Shown here one piece after another: positions 1,559 to 33,900 of a stretch of 35,956 nt of DNA (the stretch's first letter is position 1; each line of letters opens with the position of its first letter). The position numbers and the translations under genes are program-made. This DNA comes from Gemmatimonadota bacterium. Lineage in GTDB: Bacteria; Gemmatimonadota; Gemmatimonadetes; Longimicrobiales; Gaopeijiaceae. Where the stretch lies: assembly GCA_028874985.1 (NCBI GenBank), contig JAPPGI010000013.1, positions 1-35,956 of the forward strand. Direction: 5' to 3'. Under the pieces are notes generated by a model. That model did no database searches, was not told where the DNA came from, and saw only the letters and a list, made by a program, of their open reading frames with translations.

Positions 1559-3586
1559 TCATATCCGGCCCTCCTTCCGCAGCCGCCAGTAGCCCTTGTT
1601 CCCCGGCAGGTAGTGGGGCTTCAGGTAGACGCGGGTGGCCGGGAGCGACTTGACGCCGTCGTAGGGCAGGCAGACGGCCTGATAGTTGTCGAGCAGCGTG
1701 AACTCGCGGGGGGTGAACACGGGCTGCATGCTCCGCTGGAACGACTTGCTCGCGCCGATGGTGCCGCGCCCGCCTCCGGCGCGGCCGGACAGGAGCGAGA
1801 ACTCGGGCCTCCCCGTGGTCTCGGTGAACGTGTAGGAGGGCTGGGTCTTCATGACGGAGCCGCACATCTCGGACGCGATCCGCGCCGACGACTCGTCGGA
1901 CAGGGACAGGAAGATCCGGGTGCGAAGCGTCTGGACCAGCGTGCGCCACGCCTCGCCCGAGGGGAGCACGGAGCGGAGCGAGGAGATCGACTGCGTGGCG
2001 ACGATGGGGATGCAGCGGCACTGCCGGGTCAGGGCGAACGCCTTCTCGTCACCGGAAGGATCGTCCTGCCCGACGGTGGCAAAGGCTTGATACTCGTCAC
2101 AGATGAACACGGCGGGCCGCATGTGACGCTCGGGACGGCGGGCGGCCTCGGCCGGACGCCGGAGCAACGCCTGCATCCAAGCGTTCTTGAGCAGCACGCC
2201 GATGGCGCGGGCGAGCGCCGGGTTCGCCCCGGCGGGCATGTTGAGCGCCAGTACCTTGCCGTCCTCGATCAGATCGGCGAGCGGCGGCAGCCTGCGGCGG
2301 AGCCCCGGCAAGGGCGGGACGGCGGCATCGTCCCGGTCCGGTCCGGCTTCATCCGGCTGCGCGGCATCGGGCGGCGGCGGACAGAACACCCCGGCCACGT
2401 CCGGCTGGTCGAACAGCGAGAGGAAGACGCTGATCCCCTCGACGATCGAGGTGCGCAGCTTCGCGTCCAGCGCCATCCAGTCCTTCCGGTACCACCGCTC
2501 GACGGCCTCGACCTGCTCGCGGAAATCGCCGCCCGCGCCGGTCCCGTCCGCTTCGGTCGTGAACTCGATCTTCCGTTCGGCGAGCCGCTTCCGAAGGCCG
2601 GTGTCGAGGCGGCATGCCGCGCTGGCCGTGCCGGAGACCGGCTTCCACGCCCAGCCTCCGAGTGCTTCCTTGTGCTCGGCGAGGTCCGTGTTGGCAATCA
2701 CGGCGCGCTGCGGACACACCCGGTCGGCCATCGCCTTGGCCTCCCCGATCTTGTCGGCGAATAACTCCGCGTCCACGGTGCAGCGGTAGATGTCCCGGAG
2801 CGTGACCCACCCGCTTGGGAGGAGCCGGTGAAGCTCGACGATCCACCGGACGAGGTTCGTGTAAGCCTGCTGCCAGAACGGTTCTCTGGACTTGCCGAAG
2901 AGTTGGTTGATGAGCGACGCCACGCCGTAGGCCAGCGAGTAGGAGTCGAGGAGAGGATCGTCGAGCGGGTTCCACTGCCACGAGCCGCCGAGCCCGATTT
3001 CGAGGTAGTCGTCAGCGCGACCGGCGTCCCCGAGGATGCTCCGGACCTGGTGGCAGAAGTCCCCTTTGACTTCGAGCACGAGCGCCCCCGCGCGGCGCTT
3101 GGGATCGTCGGCCCGCCAGTGAAGCAGCTGGCGGGCGAACGGGTACATGCAGGCGGTGGTCTTGCCGGTGCCGACGGCCCCGACGACGAGCACGCCGGTG
3201 TACAGTCCCTTCTCGGGAATGACGAGCCATGACGGCCGCTCGCTCGGGCGCGGAACGGTGGGATGGTGCAGCTCCCCGACGACGAGCGAGGGCTTGTCGT
3301 CCGCTGGCGACGTGGGCCACCGGGGCAGCCTGCCCCGGCGGACGATCCGCACGAGCGGCTGGAACCAGACCCTCCAGACCGCGAGGCAGAGGTTTCCGGC
3401 GAGGATGACGGCCGCGGCGGGAGCCGCGTGGTACCAGACGCGGATCGCCGTGTGGATGCCCGGATCGTTGTGGGCGATCAGGTCGAGGTAGGGGTTCTCG
3501 CCCAAGCCGGGGAACGGCGCGCCGATGGCGCGTCCGGCCGCCGCGCCGACAGCCGAGCCGATGATGACGAGCGTGCTGAGTCTCAT
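1559..3586 (-). CDS. VirD4/TraG-family type IV coupling ATPase
   Basis: A 675-residue membrane-anchored ATPase of the conjugative coupling-protein family, which hands DNA to a type IV secretion channel. Two hydrophobic segments lie at about residues 3-22 and 54-75. Walker A is GAVGTGKT (136-143) and Walker B is AVFICDEYQ (D497, E498). Downstream ATQSISSLRS and the late IFLSLSDE segment match the usual C-terminal ATPase core. Families of this type are typically 550-750 residues. The ATG at 3586 lacks a strong Shine-Dalgarno. No relaxase or channel genes accompany it, so the element either relies on a helper or uses this protein as a stand-alone DNA pump. The precise subfamily (TraG, TraD or TcpA-like) cannot be settled by eye. 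Confidence 0.85.
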   Translation of the reverse strand: MRLSTLVIIGSAVGAAAGRAIGAPFPGLGENPYLDLIAHNDPGIHTAIRVWYHAAPAAAVILAGNLCLAVWRVWFQPLVRIVRRGRLPRWPTSPADDKPSLVVGELHHPTVPRPSERPSWLVIPEKGLYTGVLVVGAVGTGKTTACMYPFARQLLHWRADDPKRRAGALVLEVKGDFCHQVRSILGDAGRADDYLEIGLGGSWQWNPLDDPLLDSYSLAYGVASLINQLFGKSREPFWQQAYTNLVRWIVELHRLLPSGWVTLRDIYRCTVDAELFADKIGEAKAMADRVCPQRAVIANTDLAEHKEALGGWAWKPVSGTASAACRLDTGLRKRLAERKIEFTTEADGTGAGGDFREQVEAVERWYRKDWMALDAKLRTSIVEGISVFLSLFDQPDVAGVFCPPPPDAAQPDEAGPDRDDAAVPPLPGLRRRLPPLADLIEDGKVLALNMPAGANPALARAIGVLLKNAWMQALLRRPAEAARRPERHMRPAVFICDEYQAFATVGQDDPSGDEKAFALTRQCRCIPIVATQSISSLRSVLPSGEAWRTLVQTLRTRIFLSLSDESSARIASEMCGSVMKTQPSYTFTETTGRPEFSLLSGRAGGGRGTIGASKSFQRSMQPVFTPREFTLLDNYQAVCLPYDGVKSLPATRVYLKPHYLPGNKGYWRLRKEGRI

Positions 3587-3883: not shown

Positions 3884-4816
3884 TCACAGGTAGCGCACTC
3901 CTTGAAGGCGAACGGTCCGCCAAGCGCTGGCGCGGTGGATCGTGGCGATCCGACGCCCCCGCAGCGCCTCCTTCTCCAGCGCCACGCTCTTCTGCATGGC
4001 GGCTTGCAGCCCGCCGTACTCGTCGAGAACCTCGACGGAACCCTCGATGATCGCACGTTCGATCCGGGCAAGCTCGATGGCCGCCATCGGGTCGGGCTCG
4101 GCGGTGGCGGTGGCTTCCGTCCAGTAGCGCATCACCTTCCTGGCCCGCCGGGCCTGCCGCGACGTGCGGGCGACCACGACCGCCTCGACGGTTCGGCCCA
4201 ACGTCGCGAGCGCCCGCCAGAGACCCCGGTGCGCTCTGCCCCACGACCGGAGCGCGGTCGCGGTGTCGTGGCCGGGATCGGCGTAGACGAAGACGGCGCG
4301 CTCGGAGTCGAGGGCGACGGGCAGCTTGACGTGGAAGTACCGGCGCGTGGTTCCGGCTTTGCCCCGGTATACCCGGACGGGCAGGAGCTCCCGGTCGATC
4401 CCGAGCGCATCGAACGCGGCGACCTTCTCGGCCTCGGTCGGGAGCCACGGCAGGTCCGGATGCTCGATCACGTGTTCGAGCGACAGCAGGCGGCGCATGA
4501 GCACGACCGGGGAGGCGGTCCTGCGGTGGCGGATGTGCTCCGCGCCCAGCGCGCGGTAGAGGCTCCGGGCGTAGATCCGGCAGACGCGGCCGATCCCCCG
4601 GACGCGCGGGACGGTCTCCTCGGCCGCGAGACCCTGCGCGATCAGCGCGTGGACCATGCGCCGCGCCCGTTCGTGGTGCGTACTCAGGAACGCCGTCGCC
4701 TGCGTGCGGGTGAAGACCCCGCTGTGAAGGCACACCAGAGCGATCCACTCGGCCTTGCGGCCCTTCCAGCCGAACGGCTTCAGGGCCTCCGCCCGTTCTT
4801 CGAGACGGGCGGTCAT
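3884..4816 (-). CDS. Winged-helix replication-relaxation-like protein of a mobile element
   Basis: A 310-residue protein without signal peptide or membrane segment. The first 80 residues look like a winged helix: a helical segment (WIALVCLHSGVFTRTQATAF), a recognition helix with the run ERARRMVHALIAQGL, and a basic wing. The remainder includes FHVKLPVALDSERAVFVYAD and arginine-rich helices. This layout resembles the replication-relaxation family found beside coupling ATPases on conjugative elements; that family call is moderate. The start is the ATG at 4816, which overlaps the upstream stop as ATGA, implying translational coupling. A longer reading from 4843 is less likely. It may be the element's own DNA-processing or accessory mobilisation protein, since no classical relaxase is present. 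Confidence 0.55.
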   Translation of the reverse strand: MTARLEERAEALKPFGWKGRKAEWIALVCLHSGVFTRTQATAFLSTHHERARRMVHALIAQGLAAEETVPRVRGIGRVCRIYARSLYRALGAEHIRHRRTASPVVLMRRLLSLEHVIEHPDLPWLPTEAEKVAAFDALGIDRELLPVRVYRGKAGTTRRYFHVKLPVALDSERAVFVYADPGHDTATALRSWGRAHRGLWRALATLGRTVEAVVVARTSRQARRARKVMRYWTEATATAEPDPMAAIELARIERAIIEGSVEVLDEYGGLQAAMQKSVALEKEALRGRRIATIHRASAWRTVRLQGVRYL

Positions 4817-5028
4817 CGCGCCGCGATCCGGTCGCGCAGCCACTCCTCCAGTTCCGATTCGATCCAGCCCACGGACCGCTCGCCCAACGGGACCGGCTTG
4901 GGGAACCGGCCCTCGGCCATCATTACATAGATCGTGCTCCGCGACAGGCCCGTGCGGGCCATCACCTCATGCAGCCGCACGAAGCGGATCGGGGAAGTCG
5001 TTCTCGGTTGCGTCTGGTGTTCGCTCAT
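4813..5028 (-). CDS. AlpA-family excisionase-like regulator (internal start form)
   Basis: A 71-residue DNA-binding protein. It shows the AlpA/excisionase motif: FVRLHEVMARTGLSRSTIY (winged-helix HTH), then the wing GRFPKPVPLGERSVGW and the helix ESELEEWLRDRI. Such proteins activate or assist excision of integrated elements and are usually 60-90 residues. An ATG at 5028 is preceded by GGGGAG at good spacing, so independent translation is likely even though the frame stays open upstream (see 4813-5304). Its stop overlaps the next start as ATGA. By analogy it probably controls the integrase and transfer genes or bends DNA at the element ends. Confidence 0.75.
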   Translation of the reverse strand: MSEHQTQPRTTSPIRFVRLHEVMARTGLSRSTIYVMMAEGRFPKPVPLGERSVGWIESELEEWLRDRIAAR

Positions 5029-5304
5029 CGCTCTGCTCCCCGTCGTGCTCCTCGATTTCGATGCGGGCTTCCGGTGCCGGGGGCGGCGGGGCGGCTCGCG
5101 TGCGCCGCCCGGCTCACGGCCGAAACCGGCGATGAACGCCAGAACCCGGTCTGCCGTCCGGAGCGTGAGCGAGCGGCCGACGTCGATCTGGCGCATCAGG
5201 TTCGGGTCGCCCAGCGCCATCCTCCCGAACCTCGTCCGGCTCAGGCCCGTGCGATCGAGGAAAGTGCTAACTCGCGTGCTGAAGTACTCTTGCAGCGTAT
5301 CCAT
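4813..5304 (-). CDS. Small HTH protein read in frame into the AlpA domain
   Basis: From the ATG at 5304 the frame is open for 163 residues. Residues 1-65 form a small helix-turn-helix domain with FLDRTGLSRTRFGRMALGDP and RTADRVLAFIAGF. In other bacteria this pattern occurs as a short separate regulator with a FGR-ALGDP-L-R core. A basic, low-complexity linker (about 66-92, rich in R, P, K and S) joins it to the AlpA domain. Either this is a fusion of two normally separate regulators, or one frame holds two nested products because the AlpA part has its own ribosome-binding site. Upstream TTG/GTG codons near 5340 allow a slightly longer form. The operator-like palindrome at 5342-5361 lies directly upstream. 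Confidence 0.55.
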   Translation of the reverse strand: MDTLQEYFSTRVSTFLDRTGLSRTRFGRMALGDPNLMRQIDVGRSLTLRTADRVLAFIAGFGREPGGAREPPRRPRHRKPASKSRSTTGSRAMSEHQTQPRTTSPIRFVRLHEVMARTGLSRSTIYVMMAEGRFPKPVPLGERSVGWIESELEEWLRDRIAAR

Positions 5305-5528: not shown

Positions 5529-5557
5529 TTGACGGTACCGCGACCAGCCTGTATGGT
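5529..5557 (+). promoter_or_regulatory. Sigma70-like promoter of the thioredoxin/propeller/peptide operon
   Basis: TTGACG (5529-5534) and TATGGT (5552-5557) are separated by exactly 17 bases. The predicted transcript start near 5564 leaves a short leader to the ATG at 5592. This is the best promoter match seen in the window and separates the operon from the element on its left. Confidence 0.55.
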
Positions 5558-5591
5558 ATCGGCTCCCACCCAAGCCCCCAGCAAAGACCGG

Positions 5592-6248
5592 ATGAATCCA
5601 AGAAGAATGTGGAAGAAGCGCCTCAACACTGCGGCCAAGCTGGCCTGGGTCGGGCTTCTTGCCGGAGGGGTGGCGTATTTCGCCGCCCAACAACGAGGAA
5701 CCCCCGATGCGCCGCCCAGATTCCGAACGCTCACCCCAGACGAAGCGGCGAGGGCATGGGAGGGTGGACAAGTGCTTGGGCATGCCGAGGACACCGAGGC
5801 TGATGTCGTCGTATTCTCACGGTATACGTGCCCGTTCTCGCAAGCGCTTTTCTTCAGATTGGATAGCTTGGCGCTGGGCGGCGACCGTCAGCCAACCGTC
5901 CGCATTCGGCACCTCGTCCATCCCATGGATTCGGTCTCGTACCGGGCGGCGCTTGGAATGGTGTGTGCCGATCTCCAAGGCCGGTCGGGAGAATTCCATG
6001 ACGCTCTTCTTCGCGATACGTCGCAGAAGCATGTCGGCGATCTAGTCTCCATAGCAGCGCGGACGGGTATCGGCGACCTACCGAGTTTTCAGACCTGCTT
6101 GGCCAGCGAAGAAGCCGTTGGGTCGGTTGATACCGACCTCCAAGATGGCCTTGAGTTGGGGATTACGGGGGTACCCGCGTTGGTCGCTGGCGATCGGCTG
6201 GTGGTCGGGAGCGTATCCGAAACCGAGCTCAGGGAGTGGTTGCGGTGA
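5592..6248 (+). CDS. Membrane-anchored DsbA/thioredoxin-fold protein with CPFS active site
   Basis: A 218-residue protein with one N-terminal hydrophobic segment (residues 13-32) and a thioredoxin-like domain facing the periplasm. The active-site region is VVVFSRYTCPFSQ, with C80 followed by P-F-S, so the usual second cysteine is serine (S83). GVPALVAGDRLV near the C-terminus supplies the cis-proline loop of DsbA-like proteins, and other cysteines lie at about 125 and 169. CXXS proteins often act in isomerisation, reduction or mixed-disulfide capture rather than simple oxidation; the activity here is inferred. The next gene starts inside its stop codon (GTGA). The nearby six-cysteine peptide gene offers an obvious substrate. 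An alternative start is the ATG at 5607. Confidence 0.78.
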   Translation: MNPRRMWKKRLNTAAKLAWVGLLAGGVAYFAAQQRGTPDAPPRFRTLTPDEAARAWEGGQVLGHAEDTEADVVVFSRYTCPFSQALFFRLDSLALGGDRQPTVRIRHLVHPMDSVSYRAALGMVCADLQGRSGEFHDALLRDTSQKHVGDLVSIAARTGIGDLPSFQTCLASEEAVGSVDTDLQDGLELGITGVPALVAGDRLVVGSVSETELREWLR

Positions 6249-7330
6249 ACAGATGCCTCCTGATCGCAGTGGCCATGCAGGTGGCGTGCGGCGATCGAGA
6301 GTCGGGATTGCCGCGCACGGACTCGCCTCTGATCGGCTCCCAAATGAGTCAAGTCGCATGGGAGCGTCTCGATACGTTGGCGGTGTTGGGGTCCGGGCCA
6401 GAATGGAGCGAGTCACCCCTGTATCGCGTGTCCGACGCAGTGCTCGACAACGAGCGGAACACAGTTTTCTTGGTGAACGGGGGGAATAGCGAGCTCATCC
6501 GCTACGACATCGGCGACGGTCAGATCCACTCGATCGGGCGGCGGGGGCGGGGTCCAGGGGAGTTCGGGCGACCGCTGTGGATGGAACCGCACGGCCCGGA
6601 CTCATTGCTTGTGTATGACCGAGATCTCACCCAATTCTCCGTCTTTTCGAGGTCGGGTGGCTTCGGTCGCACCTTCAGGGTGCCGGGAATCGGCCTGAGG
6701 GGGAGGCAGCCTGCCGCCCTGACACGAATGGGAACCGGGCTTTGGGCCGCCACATCCTCGGGACTGCCACAGGTGCTGATGGTGCCGGAGACGCCCGCCG
6801 GCACGAAGGCGCGCGACACGCTTGCTATCGTCGCGATAACGGCCGAGGGCAATGTCGGAGACACGGTTGCCCGCGTCCCTCACGCACTATGGGAGCGGCT
6901 CCCGGATCCGACATCATTCAATATCCGTCGTGACGAAGACGCCGGGGGAGCGATGATATCTGGCGGGGGCGGAAGGCTGTTCATCGCGACCTTTGCGGAC
7001 TCGCTGGAGGTGTTTGAGTATCTGGTCGCTGACGGCCCTGATGCCCGGCTTCTGAACCCGGTGGCGGTAGGAGCACCGCGCCAAGGCGTGGTTCAAGTGT
7101 TCGCGAGCCGGGAGGGGACGCTGTGGATCGGGGAGGACCAGTCGGCTGGTGAATCTACAGTTCTTCATGCGTTTCGACCGGGTGAGGACGAGTGGGTTCT
7201 TGCGGGGAGCCTCGCCCTTGATGGGAGTGTTCAGATACTGGACGCGGCGCAAGCTAGGATCGTCCTATTGCACCGCGATTCGCTGGGAATCGAGACGGTC
7301 GTGATTGCCCGCGCCAGCGGGACTAGGTAG
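6245..7330 (+). CDS. 6-bladed beta-propeller lipoprotein
   Basis: A 361-residue secreted protein starting at a GTG that overlaps the upstream stop as GTGA. A short hydrophobic leader ends at MQVAC, a plausible but non-canonical lipobox with C17. The body shows repeated beta-strand patterns of a propeller, including the family hallmark IGRRGRGPGEFGRP, then LLVYDRDLTQFSVFS, GGRLFIATFADSLEVFEY and GTLWIGED. Such 6-bladed propellers are abundant in Bacteroidetes and Gemmatimonadota and in Bacteroidetes often sit next to small secreted peptides of the NVEALA type. Translational coupling with the thioredoxin-fold gene and closeness of the Cys-rich peptide gene 50 bases downstream point to a shared function, perhaps binding or presenting the peptide. 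Confidence 0.8.
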   Translation: MNRCLLIAVAMQVACGDRESGLPRTDSPLIGSQMSQVAWERLDTLAVLGSGPEWSESPLYRVSDAVLDNERNTVFLVNGGNSELIRYDIGDGQIHSIGRRGRGPGEFGRPLWMEPHGPDSLLVYDRDLTQFSVFSRSGGFGRTFRVPGIGLRGRQPAALTRMGTGLWAATSSGLPQVLMVPETPAGTKARDTLAIVAITAEGNVGDTVARVPHALWERLPDPTSFNIRRDEDAGGAMISGGGGRLFIATFADSLEVFEYLVADGPDARLLNPVAVGAPRQGVVQVFASREGTLWIGEDQSAGESTVLHAFRPGEDEWVLAGSLALDGSVQILDAAQARIVLLHRDSLGIETVVIARASGTR

Positions 7331-7366
7331 TTTCTTTCGTCGAGTAAGGTTGAACCCACCACCCAG

Positions 7367-7374
7367 AAGGAGAT
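7367..7374 (+). promoter_or_regulatory. Strong ribosome-binding site of the Cys-rich peptide
   Basis: AAGGAGAT sits 6 bases before the ATG at 7381. It is one of the strongest Shine-Dalgarno matches in the window, which supports the short reading frame downstream as a real, probably highly translated gene. Confidence 0.7.
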
Positions 7375-7380
7375 CTTGAG

Positions 7381-7590
7381 ATGCGTTGGAGAACACTGAT
7401 TCCGCTGTCGCTGACCCTCGCTGTCGCCGTCACCCTGGCTCTCACCAACGCCGGTGGCTCGATGGCTCAGGAGCCTCCCCCGCCACATCCCCTCTGCGGG
7501 ATGGTGAAAGGCGACGACTGCGAAAGCATCTGTCAGCGCGAGTGCAAGGACGGCAGTTGCTGTCACATGAGGCACTACAACTACCTGTAG
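7381..7590 (+). CDS. Secreted six-cysteine mini-protein
   Basis: A 69-residue peptide. Residues 1-30 form a signal peptide: MRWR, a hydrophobic stretch rich in L, T, A and V, and a probable cleavage after GSMA. The mature part starts with a proline-rich QEPPPPHP segment and then has six cysteines in about 23 residues, spaced C-x7-C-x3-C-x3-C-x5-CC, ending HMRHYNYL. The pattern suggests a disulfide-stabilised knot. The segment LALTNAGGSMAQ before the mature part resembles the leader boundary of Bacteroidetes NVEALA peptides, also short, cysteine-rich and next to 6-bladed propellers; this link is inferred. It follows the propeller gene by 50 bases and a hairpin follows it. No function is assigned; an antimicrobial, signalling or surface peptide are all possible. 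Confidence 0.72.
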   Translation: MRWRTLIPLSLTLAVAVTLALTNAGGSMAQEPPPPHPLCGMVKGDDCESICQRECKDGSCCHMRHYNYL

Positions 7591-8021
7591 CGGTTCGGAG
7601 ACCCTCCGGGGTAGGAAGGTCGCGAGAGAGGCCGGGCAGCGGGGTTCTCCCGCCGCTCGCCTCTCTGCGCGTTGATGCGTGGAGCGCGTTTTCCGAGTTG
7701 CGTGTTCGATGATCGGATCTCGGTTTCGACGGAGACGCGATGGCGGGTGCCCTCGTTTTCGTTCCGTACCTGGTGTTCGCCACCCCTCCACATCCCAACC
7801 CGTATCATTGAGGCGGCTTCACGCCGAATGCCCGCCATATGATGCAGTTTCTCCGGCTGTTTTGGTACGGTGGGACGTGGGAGGGATCTAGCGGCAAGAA
7901 CGGCAGATCGTGCAGTCCTGGTTGGACTTACGTGGTTCCTTGCCATGATTCGCGAACCTCATGCCCTGCCAGCCCGGCGCCTCGCCGCTCTCGGTGCTCG
8001 CGGGGCTTTATCCACGGACTG
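7591..8021. other. Intergenic stretch between convergent units
   Basis: This 431-base stretch lies between the peptide gene (plus) and the serine hydrolase gene (minus). Apart from the hairpin at 7625-7666, I find no open frame with a ribosome-binding site, no tRNA-like fold and no recognisable protein remnant. Confidence 0.6.
7625..7666 (+). terminator. Probable terminator hairpin of the peptide operon
   Basis: AGAGAGGC (7625-7632) pairs with GCCTCTCT (7659-7666), with further GC pairing in the enclosed segment. It begins 35 bases after the peptide stop. There is no clear U-run after it, so termination may be imperfect or need a factor. Confidence 0.5.
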
Positions 8022-9689
8022 CTAGCCGGCGGAGCCCGATCGGCTCGCGGATTCGGAGACCGCTCGCCGGAAGACGATGTCGGCGCCGCTGGGCTCGAAG
8101 GGGATGGCCACGGTCGCCACCTCGCCGGAATCGTCGGAAGCGAAGGTCACGAGTCCGGTGACCGGCACCATGGTGGGGAGGGAGGCGATCGCAAAGGTGT
8201 CGTAGTGGTAGTGCTCGAGTTCGAGGCGGAATCCGTCGTAGCGGATCTCGAGGCGGCCTTCATTGACCCGCACTTCCATCAGCCCGTACGCCGGATGCTC
8301 GTAGTGCCCCGCGTAGGCGACGAGTTCGTGGCTGGTCTGCGTATCCTTGACCCGCCGTGCCTCCAGGTCGCGCGCGTTCTCCTCGGCCCGGGCCCGCTGC
8401 TCGTCCCGCAGCTTCAGATTGCGGGTGTTCCAGTCGATCTCGGGCAGGCCCAGCAGGCGGTCGTAGATGTTGTAAGCGACGGTCACGGGAACGGGGTTCA
8501 TGTCGCCGGAGCGGTTGCTCAGCACGATGACTCCGATCCTCTGGTTCGGTAGCCACGACATGGACGAGGTGAAGCCGTCGATCCCGCCCCCGTGGGCCAC
8601 CATCTTGTGTCCGCGATAGCTGCCGACGCGCAGGCCGAGTCCGTAGCTCACCTGCCCCAGTTCGGCGAACCCGGATTCCGCCGGCATGGCGAACTGGGGC
8701 TGCTGCATCCGCGCCGCACTCTCTTCGGACAGGATTCGCCGGTTTCCGAAGACACCCTGGTCCAGGTGCATCCGAATGTAGGCGAGCATCTCGAGGACAT
8801 TCGAATTGATGGAGCCGGCCGGGCCCATGTGGTCGAGGTTGCGGAAGGGAACTCCGTCGAGAACGCCGCCGCGCAGGATGTAGGGCAGCGCGTAGTCTCC
8901 CGACTCGGGGTTGTCGTCGACCGAAGTATTGGAGCGGTCCATACCCAGCGGCGTGAAGACCCGTTCGTCGATGAGCCGGTGCCAGTTCCTGCCCGCGATC
9001 CGTTCCGCCAGGTGCCCCGCGGCCATGAACATCAGATTCTGATACTGGAAGCGGCTCCGGAACGAGGCGTTGGGCTCCAGGAAACGCAGCTTCGCGAAGA
9101 GTTCCGCCCGCGTTTGCGGCCGGCCGTACCAGACGTTGTCGTGGCGCGGCAGCCCCGACTGGTGAGTGACGAGGTCGCGGGGTGTCATCTCGGCGGTCGC
9201 GAATTCGTCGTAGAGCCGGAAGTCGGGAAGGTAGTCGCGCACGGGCCTGTCCCACTCCAGCCTGCCCTCGTCCGCCAGCATGGCCAGCAGTGCCACCGTG
9301 AAGGACTTGCTGCCGGATCCGATGGCCATCGTGGTGTGCTCGGTGACCGGCAGAAGGGCTTCCCGGTCACGATGGCCGAAGCCCCTCGCGAACAGCACCT
9401 CCCCGTCGCGAATCACGCCCGCGGCGAGACCGGGGACCCGCCAATCCGACATGATCGAGGTGACGAAATCGTCGAAGCCGGCGAAGGCCTCCGCAGCGGG
9501 GACGGGATGGACCGGGGCGGGGATCGTGTCCGGCAGAGGCGGTTCCCGGTCGCCGACCTGGGCCGCGAGTGGGAGCGTTGCCACGGTACTGGCCGCCAGG
9601 GCGAGAAGGACGAGACGGGAATGTCGTCCCCCGGTCCGCCCGGGATGGATTACGCGGATAAGGCCTCCTGGGTGGGTGCTATCGTGCAT
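8022..9689 (-). CDS. Exported serine hydrolase, beta-lactamase/penicillin-binding fold
   Basis: A 555-residue protein of the class C beta-lactamase-like family (esterases, D-aminopeptidases, peptidases). Motifs are SGSK (S125 to K128, the SxxK nucleophile and base), YQN (Y216-N218) and HGG (from H366). A hydrophobic stretch at residues 26-44 ending PLAAQ looks like a signal peptide, preceded by an unusually long 25-residue n-region. After the catalytic domain (about 65-420) a C-terminal beta-rich region from about 440 resembles the DUF3471 tail common in these enzymes. An AGGAGG lies inside the first codons with no start at proper spacing, so the true start may differ. It sits 173 bases downstream of the FAD oxidoreductase on the same strand; no other gene is seen in that gap. 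The substrate cannot be told. Confidence 0.88.
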   Translation of the reverse strand: MHDSTHPGGLIRVIHPGRTGGRHSRLVLLALAASTVATLPLAAQVGDREPPLPDTIPAPVHPVPAAEAFAGFDDFVTSIMSDWRVPGLAAGVIRDGEVLFARGFGHRDREALLPVTEHTTMAIGSGSKSFTVALLAMLADEGRLEWDRPVRDYLPDFRLYDEFATAEMTPRDLVTHQSGLPRHDNVWYGRPQTRAELFAKLRFLEPNASFRSRFQYQNLMFMAAGHLAERIAGRNWHRLIDERVFTPLGMDRSNTSVDDNPESGDYALPYILRGGVLDGVPFRNLDHMGPAGSINSNVLEMLAYIRMHLDQGVFGNRRILSEESAARMQQPQFAMPAESGFAELGQVSYGLGLRVGSYRGHKMVAHGGGIDGFTSSMSWLPNQRIGVIVLSNRSGDMNPVPVTVAYNIYDRLLGLPEIDWNTRNLKLRDEQRARAEENARDLEARRVKDTQTSHELVAYAGHYEHPAYGLMEVRVNEGRLEIRYDGFRLELEHYHYDTFAIASLPTMVPVTGLVTFASDDSGEVATVAIPFEPSGADIVFRRAVSESASRSGSAG

Positions 9690-21915: not shown

Positions 21916-22001
21916 ACGCGCGCAAGCCGGCAGCCGGCCGCCTCGCCGCTCTCCATGCCTGGACGGGTCCGTCCACGGCACCATCCACGGCGACGGCGGA
22001 C

Positions 22002-32532: not shown

Positions 32533-32691
32533 TCAGTCAGGATCTGCTCCGGCCGGAAGCAACGGTATCCGGGTGGACGGGGTCCAACAGCCGAGAATCG
32601 ACGGATCTGAGGAGCGCGGATTGGACTACCTTCACTGCCACGACCAAAGCGAGGGTTGGGCCGACCCGGTCGCGACCGGCCAGGGGTCACC

Positions 32692-33900
32692 ATGAGCAGT
32701 TGCCGGATCCTCCTCTCGGTCGGATTCATCTGTAACGCCGTTGCCGCGTGCAACGATGCCCGGTCCGAGAGGGAAGTTCAGGCCCGCAGCGTGGTTCAGG
32801 TCTCCGACTCCGCCGGGATCACAAACATCTTCCTGGGCCGGGTGGCAGAATTGACGGCACCCGAGTTGGAGGCGGATCCTGTTTTCTCCACGCGGGAACT
32901 CGGGATCGAGTTGTTCCGGGTTGGGGACGCCCTCCTCCTCGGCGGCGGTGGCCTGGCCGTGGCCAACACGGGCGAGAGCGAAGTGTTGATCCTCTCCGTA
33001 GATGGTTCCCTTGCAACTCGCGTGGGCGGACAGGGCGAAGGCCCCGGGGAGTTCCGCGAGATCACCACGCTCCTTGCCACCGAAGCCGGGTTCCTGGCCT
33101 ACGACTCGCGGCTGGCCCGTCTCAACGAGTTCTCGGAGACCGGGCGGTTCCTCACGTCGTCGCGACTCGACCCGCAGAGTGCCATCGTGAGTCTGAGACC
33201 TCTCGCGACGGACACCGCCGGTCACGTCCTCGCGATCCTGGGAGAGCAGCGGTTCTTTCTTCCCGAGGGCATGAAGAGGGATACGACGCCCCTGCTATCG
33301 TTCACGGATCTCGGGGCCGAGCCGGACACGTTGGGAGTTCTTCCAGCCAAGGAATGGAGCTACGGCGGCATTCCCGGAGGAGGGGCCACTCGTAGCGAAC
33401 CCGCGTTTGGACGCGATATCGTCGCCTACGGATTCGGGGACCGGGCGCTGATCGGGGACACGGACGTGTTGAGCCTGTCCATCTACGGGGCCGACGGTCG
33501 CCTTACGCGACGGATTCGTGGCACCGGCGGCGGGTGGGCGGTTACGACCGAAGAGATCGAGGCGTCAAGAGCGGAACGGCTCGCCCGCCCTGGGCCGGAC
33601 GCACCGGACTGGTACCTGCAGTTCATCGAGAATGCTCCCTACCGGGACACCCACCCGGCCTTTCACTCGGCGCTTCTGGGACCCGGCGAGATGGTCTGGA
33701 TCGGGTTGGCGACCCGCCTGGGCGAGGAAACGAGACGCTGGCTCGTCGTCGGCACCGACGGACAACCGCGGGGATGGCTGGATCTTCCAGCCAAGGCGAG
33801 TGTGCTGGCCATGGATGCCGACCGATTCGCCATCCTCCTGCGTGATGCCAACGACGAAGAGGAAGTCAGACTCTACGGCTATGGTCCAAGTCGCAAGTAG
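32692..33900 (+). CDS. 6-bladed beta-propeller lipoprotein (second copy)
   Basis: A 402-residue lipoprotein with lipobox AVAAC (C20). Propeller hallmarks include RVGGQGEGPGEFREI, followed by LAYDSRLARLNEFSETGRFL and blade repeats such as DVLSLSIYGADGRLTRRI. It is of the same family as the propeller at 6245-7330 but clearly diverged and has no peptide or thioredoxin-like gene beside it. The ATG at 32692 follows AGGGG. The 243-base divergent gap with the beta-galactosidase gene holds no recognised promoter. The role is unknown; a surface binding function is possible. Confidence 0.8.
   Translation: MSSCRILLSVGFICNAVAACNDARSEREVQARSVVQVSDSAGITNIFLGRVAELTAPELEADPVFSTRELGIELFRVGDALLLGGGGLAVANTGESEVLILSVDGSLATRVGGQGEGPGEFREITTLLATEAGFLAYDSRLARLNEFSETGRFLTSSRLDPQSAIVSLRPLATDTAGHVLAILGEQRFFLPEGMKRDTTPLLSFTDLGAEPDTLGVLPAKEWSYGGIPGGGATRSEPAFGRDIVAYGFGDRALIGDTDVLSLSIYGADGRLTRRIRGTGGGWAVTTEEIEASRAERLARPGPDAPDWYLQFIENAPYRDTHPAFHSALLGPGEMVWIGLATRLGEETRRWLVVGTDGQPRGWLDLPAKASVLAMDADRFAILLRDANDEEEVRLYGYGPSRK

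Follow-up and report, generated by a model that had tools for sequence, protein, structure and literature searches.

A DsbA-like protein, a six-bladed propeller and a cysteine-rich secreted peptide as cargo of an integrative element in Gemmatimonadota

Described peptide systems and the present module

In Bacteroidetes, according to the initial annotation, NVEALA peptides are paired with 6-bladed propellers. The three-gene set described here, from a stretch of 35,956 nucleotides of a Gemmatimonadota bacterium (the window), resembles that pairing in that a small exported peptide adjoins a 6-bladed propeller, and sibling propellers match PF17170; it differs in having a DsbA partner, in the occurrence of DsbA-propeller fusions and in the lack of a match to the NVEALA profile (PF14055). 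This profile gave no match in the source genome, one in a control Bacteroides genome, and none on ten module peptides tested, so that membership in the NVEALA family was rejected; the kinship implied when the initial annotation presented the locus as an analogue of those systems is not supported.

That a peptide can have a disulfide helper to itself is known from pediocin PA-1, whose dedicated thiol-disulfide oxidoreductase is PedC (PMC4919988). The likeness lies in a secreted peptide containing Cys that is accompanied by a helper gene for disulfide formation, and a small exported Cys peptide next to an oxidoreductase gene, as expected of a bacteriocin-type locus, is indeed found here. Unlike pediocin PA-1, the module would export its peptide by a signal peptide, has no ABC transporter and no recognised immunity gene, and has a propeller as partner: no dedicated exporter is found among the three operon genes, which also hold no obvious immunity gene, leaving the propeller or the DsbA as the only candidates for that part. 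The three proteins have no match among the PADLOC profiles, and membership in a known anti-phage defence system was rejected on this ground; judged from profile searches, the module belongs neither to NVEALA nor to any known defence family. Searches of open-access literature for combinations of NVEALA, DUF5128 and Gemmatimonadota brought up no description of such a module.

The operon and the element that carries it

The features of the operon and of the surrounding element are the following.

124-139, no strand: left end repeat, GCCTTGCCAGCCCGGC (direct repeat D3, 15/16 identical to 7963-7978)
228-1397, minus: tyrosine integrase (for the longer ORF, 228-2021, Pfam Phage_integrase 1.7e-17)
1559-3586, minus: TraG/VirD4-type coupling protein (TrwB_AAD_bind 5.6e-9, TraG-D_C 5.1e-7)
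3884-4816, minus: element marker protein G3884 (present in 39/395 genomes of the phylum)
4813-5304, minus: AlpA-type regulator/excisionase (Phage_AlpA 4.8e-24)
5529-5557, plus: promoter-like site TTGACG-17-TATGGT (sigma-70-like motif scan)
5592-6248, plus: DsbA-like thioredoxin-fold protein with N-terminal TM anchor, active site CPFS (Pfam DSBA 4.4e-11; alignment)
6245-7330, plus: 6-bladed NHL-type beta-propeller, exported, probable lipoprotein (AF2 model, Foldseek, tree)
7367-7373, plus: AAGGAGA, ribosome-binding site for the peptide gene (sequence)
7381-7590, plus: secreted peptide, 69 aa, six Cys, signal peptide about residues 1-29, framework CGx3Gx2Cx3Cx3C...CC...YxY (ORF, homologues, alignment)
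about 7625-7666, plus: hairpin 3' of the peptide gene, without T-run (sequence, folding)
7963-7978, no strand: right end repeat, GCCCTGCCAGCCCGGC (direct repeat, pairs with 124-139)

The three open reading frames are present as they had been described, all are genuine, and they form one unit that encodes a CPFS DsbA-like protein, an NHL-type propeller with six blades and a six-cysteine peptide of 69 aa. A single promoter had been proposed, and one sigma-70-like site is found in the operon region, where 0.4 are expected. Position 5529, from which the feature had been made to start, is the −35 box of this promoter and not a credible start codon; the likeliest translation start of the DsbA gene is therefore ATG 5592 or 5607. 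The GTGA overlap of the first two genes (GTG 6245, TGA 6246-6248) and the strong ribosome-binding site of the third, which ends 7 nt before the ATG at 7381, are as originally noted. A hairpin likewise closes the operon (the stretch 7591-7680 has a folding energy of −48 kcal/mol, z −2.3), but it lacks a T-run and is no canonical terminator.

Neither the mobile-element setting nor the five additional cargo variants of this genome appear in the initial annotation. The operon is the cargo of a 7.85-kb integrative element, since it is bracketed by direct repeats and since the right end (7931-8025) is homologous to the DNA directly after the cargo of three sister elements (L134, L136, L137); many other copies have DNA homologous to this right end close to their integrase end. 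The AlpA reading frame is open to 5340, with a start MDTLQEY at 5304 comparable to the METLQEY starts of sister proteins. With an integrase, a coupling protein, end repeats and a T4SS in relatives, the element has the hallmarks of an integrative conjugative or mobilizable element. Longer relatives carry VirB4, VirB9, VirB10 and VirB11 together with coupling-protein genes, of which the window element, having no VirB genes, is a short form.

The integrase family is seen at both contig ends (228-1397 and 34651-35799) and matches 43 places in the 4.25-Mb draft source genome, many of them fragments; such an expansion is unusual, and probably also breaks the assembly. The DnaE of the source genome is 56% identical to that of a Gemmatimonadota genome and 45-52%, in some cases over part of its length, to those of genomes from other phyla, in keeping with a place in Gemmatimonadota. 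A 23-bp stretch at 21931-21953, 91% identical to the right end of the element, is possibly a further attachment site or a remnant.

In the three sister elements just mentioned, whose G3884 is 88-95% identical to that of the window, different peptide and propeller genes occupy the same place, and in a fourth within the same range of identity (L135) the cargo is unrelated; closely related backbones thus hold differing, swappable peptide-propeller cargo. In other sister elements the cargo site after AlpA holds SspB/SspC, HmaC, AbiE or a restriction-methylation pair.

Sister-element defence cargo (SspBC, HmaC, AbiE, restriction-modification): L185 11053-15386; L191 10742-13750; L158 6146-7754 (minus); L142 10860-13383

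Some of these defence genes sit behind an S24-type repressor gene. Their presence at the same site suggests, by cargo position only, that the module has a role in conflict. We put forward tentatively, as a proposal that may well not hold, that the loci represent an undescribed Gemmatimonadota conflict system, in which diverse secreted disulfide-rich peptides, resembling conotoxins in their pattern of conserved leader, fixed cysteines and hypervariable loops and each with its own DsbA-propeller folding machine, would be interchangeable cargo in the defence bay of integrative elements. The module adds a candidate system to the cargo site where sister elements keep known defence genes, and across the phylum it would supply small secreted peptides rich in disulfides from bacteria that have been little studied. 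The same elements could be read differently, with the peptide as a signal or pheromone and the propeller as its receptor, serving element self-recognition, surface exclusion or transfer control. Each element copy does have its own peptide-propeller type and the genes lie at the AlpA regulator end, but many modules found by way of DsbA relatives have no element genes alongside within the stretches examined and the unit holds no signalling genes, so we regard this as improbable.

Recurrence, co-inheritance and evolution of the peptide

In five further elements of the source genome different Cys-rich peptides lie next to different propellers, some with a DsbA and some lacking it.

C30: two 8-Cys peptides, forming a related pair, flank DsbA and propeller
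C209: Cys-rich peptide and propeller, with DsbA
C154, C176, C57: Cys-rich peptide and propeller, no recognisable DsbA

The peptides differ among the five, those of C154 and C176 being distantly similar. When 40 integrase- or G3884-bearing stretches of this genome were scanned, small secreted Cys-rich ORFs were found only beside G3884/AlpA-type elements with propellers. The neighbourhood search originally suggested shows that the set recurs in several families of Gemmatimonadota, with at least 24 peptide clusters. It had been allowed that propeller homologues might never adjoin small Cys-rich genes; clearly they do, repeatedly, and the secreted peptides beside them are variable. Among 24 such clusters the number of cysteines is even in 19 (p 0.003), an excess expected for paired cysteines. 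The peptides of the modules contain 4-11 Cys each and match no Pfam family.

Around the 29 nearest DsbA relatives a propeller is adjacent in 20, a Cys-rich secreted ORF in 13 and both in 11, while none of 80 generic DsbA loci, which come almost entirely from other phyla, has a propeller, and their 3 small-Cys matches resemble membrane proteins; the generic DsbAs, of many phyla, were returned by a genome-wide scan with a DsbA alignment and served as negative control only. By the strict definition of a small secreted Cys-rich ORF, 15 of 18 in 1.28 Mb of phylum DNA lie near propeller or DsbA genes, a neighbourhood that takes up 16% of this DNA, and none occurs in 732 kb of control DNA, figures that describe linkage and not genome-wide frequency, as the locus sets were collected around elements and propellers and searched with a home-made gene finder. 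The remaining three candidates are one family, and for at least two of them the operon has a propeller further downstream. In L173, L175 and L179 (about 1370-1657) a six-Cys peptide is followed by a 774-aa protein, a protein of about 320 aa and, if the contig extends far enough, a propeller, an arrangement that is possibly a longer variant of the module. That the neighbourhood arose by chance, or that the small ORFs are false, is conceivable insofar as the ORFs stem from a heuristic of our own and the loci were selected; conserved frames, purifying selection, co-inheritance and the controls all speak against it, the controls refuting it at the level of linkage, and we hold it to be very improbable indeed.

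The peptide of the window has no credible match in Pfam or NCBIfam and an AF2 model of it by itself is poor (pLDDT 57), its N-terminus being signal-peptide-like. Its frame is real, because a sister genome (G309) holds an 84% identical copy and because homologues with the same cysteine framework are found in three other taxonomic families; the six-cysteine secreted peptide of the initial annotation is in this sense upheld. Between the window and G309 the mature part has dN 0.05 and dS 0.28: it is conserved, not hypervariable, and under purifying selection. All aligned homologues share the framework listed above except the G309 copy (L214, G309:C95), in which one cysteine is gone (ICQRE to IGQSE), leaving 5 of six; the DsbA beside it retains CPFS.

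In two further genomes (G073, G200) distant homologues of the window peptide directly adjoin DsbA relatives that were recovered by a separate search, and in another (G285) a third distant homologue has a propeller and a different middle gene. The loci of G309, G200 and G073 group with the window by peptide, by DsbA, where they form one clade of the tree (100/99), and by propeller (100/96 among 67 propellers, a cluster that also takes in an orphan paralogue at C152). These groupings show that window-type peptide, DsbA and propeller have been co-inherited across three taxonomic families.

A different picture is given by the MLDVKTIRKLL family, to which, and not to the window-G309 pair, the term hypervariable peptide applies. 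In seven loci of this family the DsbA is mostly 82-86% identical (dN about 0.08), the propeller 69-85% and the signal peptide 70-89% (dN 0.05-0.20), whereas in most pairs the mature peptide falls to 30-58%, with a dN of about 0.35-0.85, and dN/dS is frequently close to 1. It thus changes about five times faster than the DsbA, and all seven loci keep six Cys.

DsbA, propeller and a possible folding function

Besides its DSBA match, gene 1 matches Thioredoxin_4, and against the DsbA family (PF01323/PF13462) it scores 43.4 bits, above the curated cut-off of 25.6; a membrane-tethered thioredoxin-fold protein with a CPFS site, as first described, is what the gene encodes. With the DsbA / Thioredoxin_4 periplasmic oxidoreductases it shares the fold family and, in the alignment, the cis-Pro, the first Cys of the active site and a further two conserved Cys. 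It differs from them in that the active site is CPFS in the window and G309 copies, the other aligned module members having CxxC, and in that its genomic partner is a propeller, at times fused to it. Because of the CPFS site, the window DsbA may work via mixed disulfides, as an isomerase or holdase, and not as a classical oxidase. The same site would fit an envelope redox or stress module in which DsbA and propeller handle different clients, the peptide staying in the periplasm as a small regulator, metal binder or reporter, and one module does contain a small protein with a weak match to LTXXQ, below threshold. However, no other part evolves as fast as the peptide in the family with the best sampling, and the modules have a patchy distribution, are mobile and occur in several copies, which makes this explanation quite improbable.

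Gene 2 matches no Pfam family at E<=1 and none in NCBIfam. Its AF2 model (pLDDT 75, pTM 0.75) has as best PDB match in Foldseek the Brat NHL 6-bladed propeller 1q7f (E 4.6e-10, TMt 0.69), in agreement with the beta-propeller initially assigned. The likeness to NHL-type 6-bladed propellers is one of fold; the closest structures by fold are about 12-15% identical in sequence, and the partner genes are others. The window propeller does not match PF17170 (DUF5128, '6-bladed beta-propeller'), whose cut-off is passed by the L137 fusion and by several propellers of sibling cargo. Its description as a lipoprotein is likely though not certain, as the lipobox is poor (QVAC) and the aligned, 84% identical sister propeller has LVAC.

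At eight loci a single ORF encodes both DsbA and propeller, and a Cys-rich peptide gene lies beside all eight. As an example, the L137 fusion has a TM anchor and a CPYC site and is above both Pfam cut-offs (DSBA 4.7e-14, DUF5128 3.8e-11). Seven of the eight fall in one clade of the DsbA tree (98/92), the placement of L350 being without resolution. The fusion protein has no match in a viral-contig search, and among plasmid records none spans it, the listed matches covering mainly the DsbA half. Since the two proteins are fused in eight loci, there is strong evidence that DsbA and propeller act together, and the fusions beside Cys peptides lend support to the peptide maturation and the dedicated disulfide-handling partner already suspected in the initial annotation.

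We infer, with good support, that DsbA and propeller are a dedicated periplasmic folding unit for the disulfide-rich peptide. The signal peptide would take the peptide into the periplasm, where the membrane-anchored DsbA-like protein would make or correct its disulfides; the propeller would bind the peptide and hold it near the DsbA active site, several relatives having both in one protein; and the folded peptide would be released or displayed and would then act as an effector against other microbes or mobile elements. This last role we can only infer; the peptide may kill, serve in signalling or exclusion, or act against phages. For the cassette as a whole, on its integrative element, we see an even chance that it serves DsbA-propeller folding of a secreted disulfide-rich peptide that is a diversifying effector in conflict. 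The reading is built on the genes, their linkage, co-inheritance and fusion, the rapid change of the mature peptide within one family, the mobile location and the defence cargo of sister elements. Counting against it, the window DsbA has no second active-site Cys and the G309 peptide has 5 Cys; C154, C176 and C57 have no recognisable DsbA; apart from the signal peptide no exporter is present, nor is there an obvious immunity gene; window and G309 have a conserved mature peptide; the AF2 model of the peptide is poor; and the link to defence is one of cargo position only. If correct, it would mean a new peptide-folding route with a propeller coupled or fused to DsbA.

The fast change around fixed cysteines in one family and the mobile, swappable cargo would also suit a bacteriocin that kills relatives, with the DsbA merely folding the toxin and the propeller lipoprotein as immunity protein; as the window operon has three genes only, immunity would have to fall to the propeller (or the DsbA). 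The propeller-DsbA fusion suits folding better than immunity and no exporter is present, and we therefore think a bacteriocin unlikely. Under the folding reading, the function of orphan 6-bladed propellers, about forty in the source genome, becomes directly testable through peptide binding, folding of the fusion proteins and peptide activity.

Some minor observations concern these proteins. In the L137 locus (reversed) a short ORF at 2160-2417, PDZ-like by reading, lies between the 68-aa Cys peptide and the fusion. The source genome has about 41 propeller matches, and the window itself holds a second 6-bladed propeller ORF at 32611-33900. An orphan propeller at L023 (3666-4751, minus), with no peptide or DsbA beside it, is about 62% identical to that of the window.
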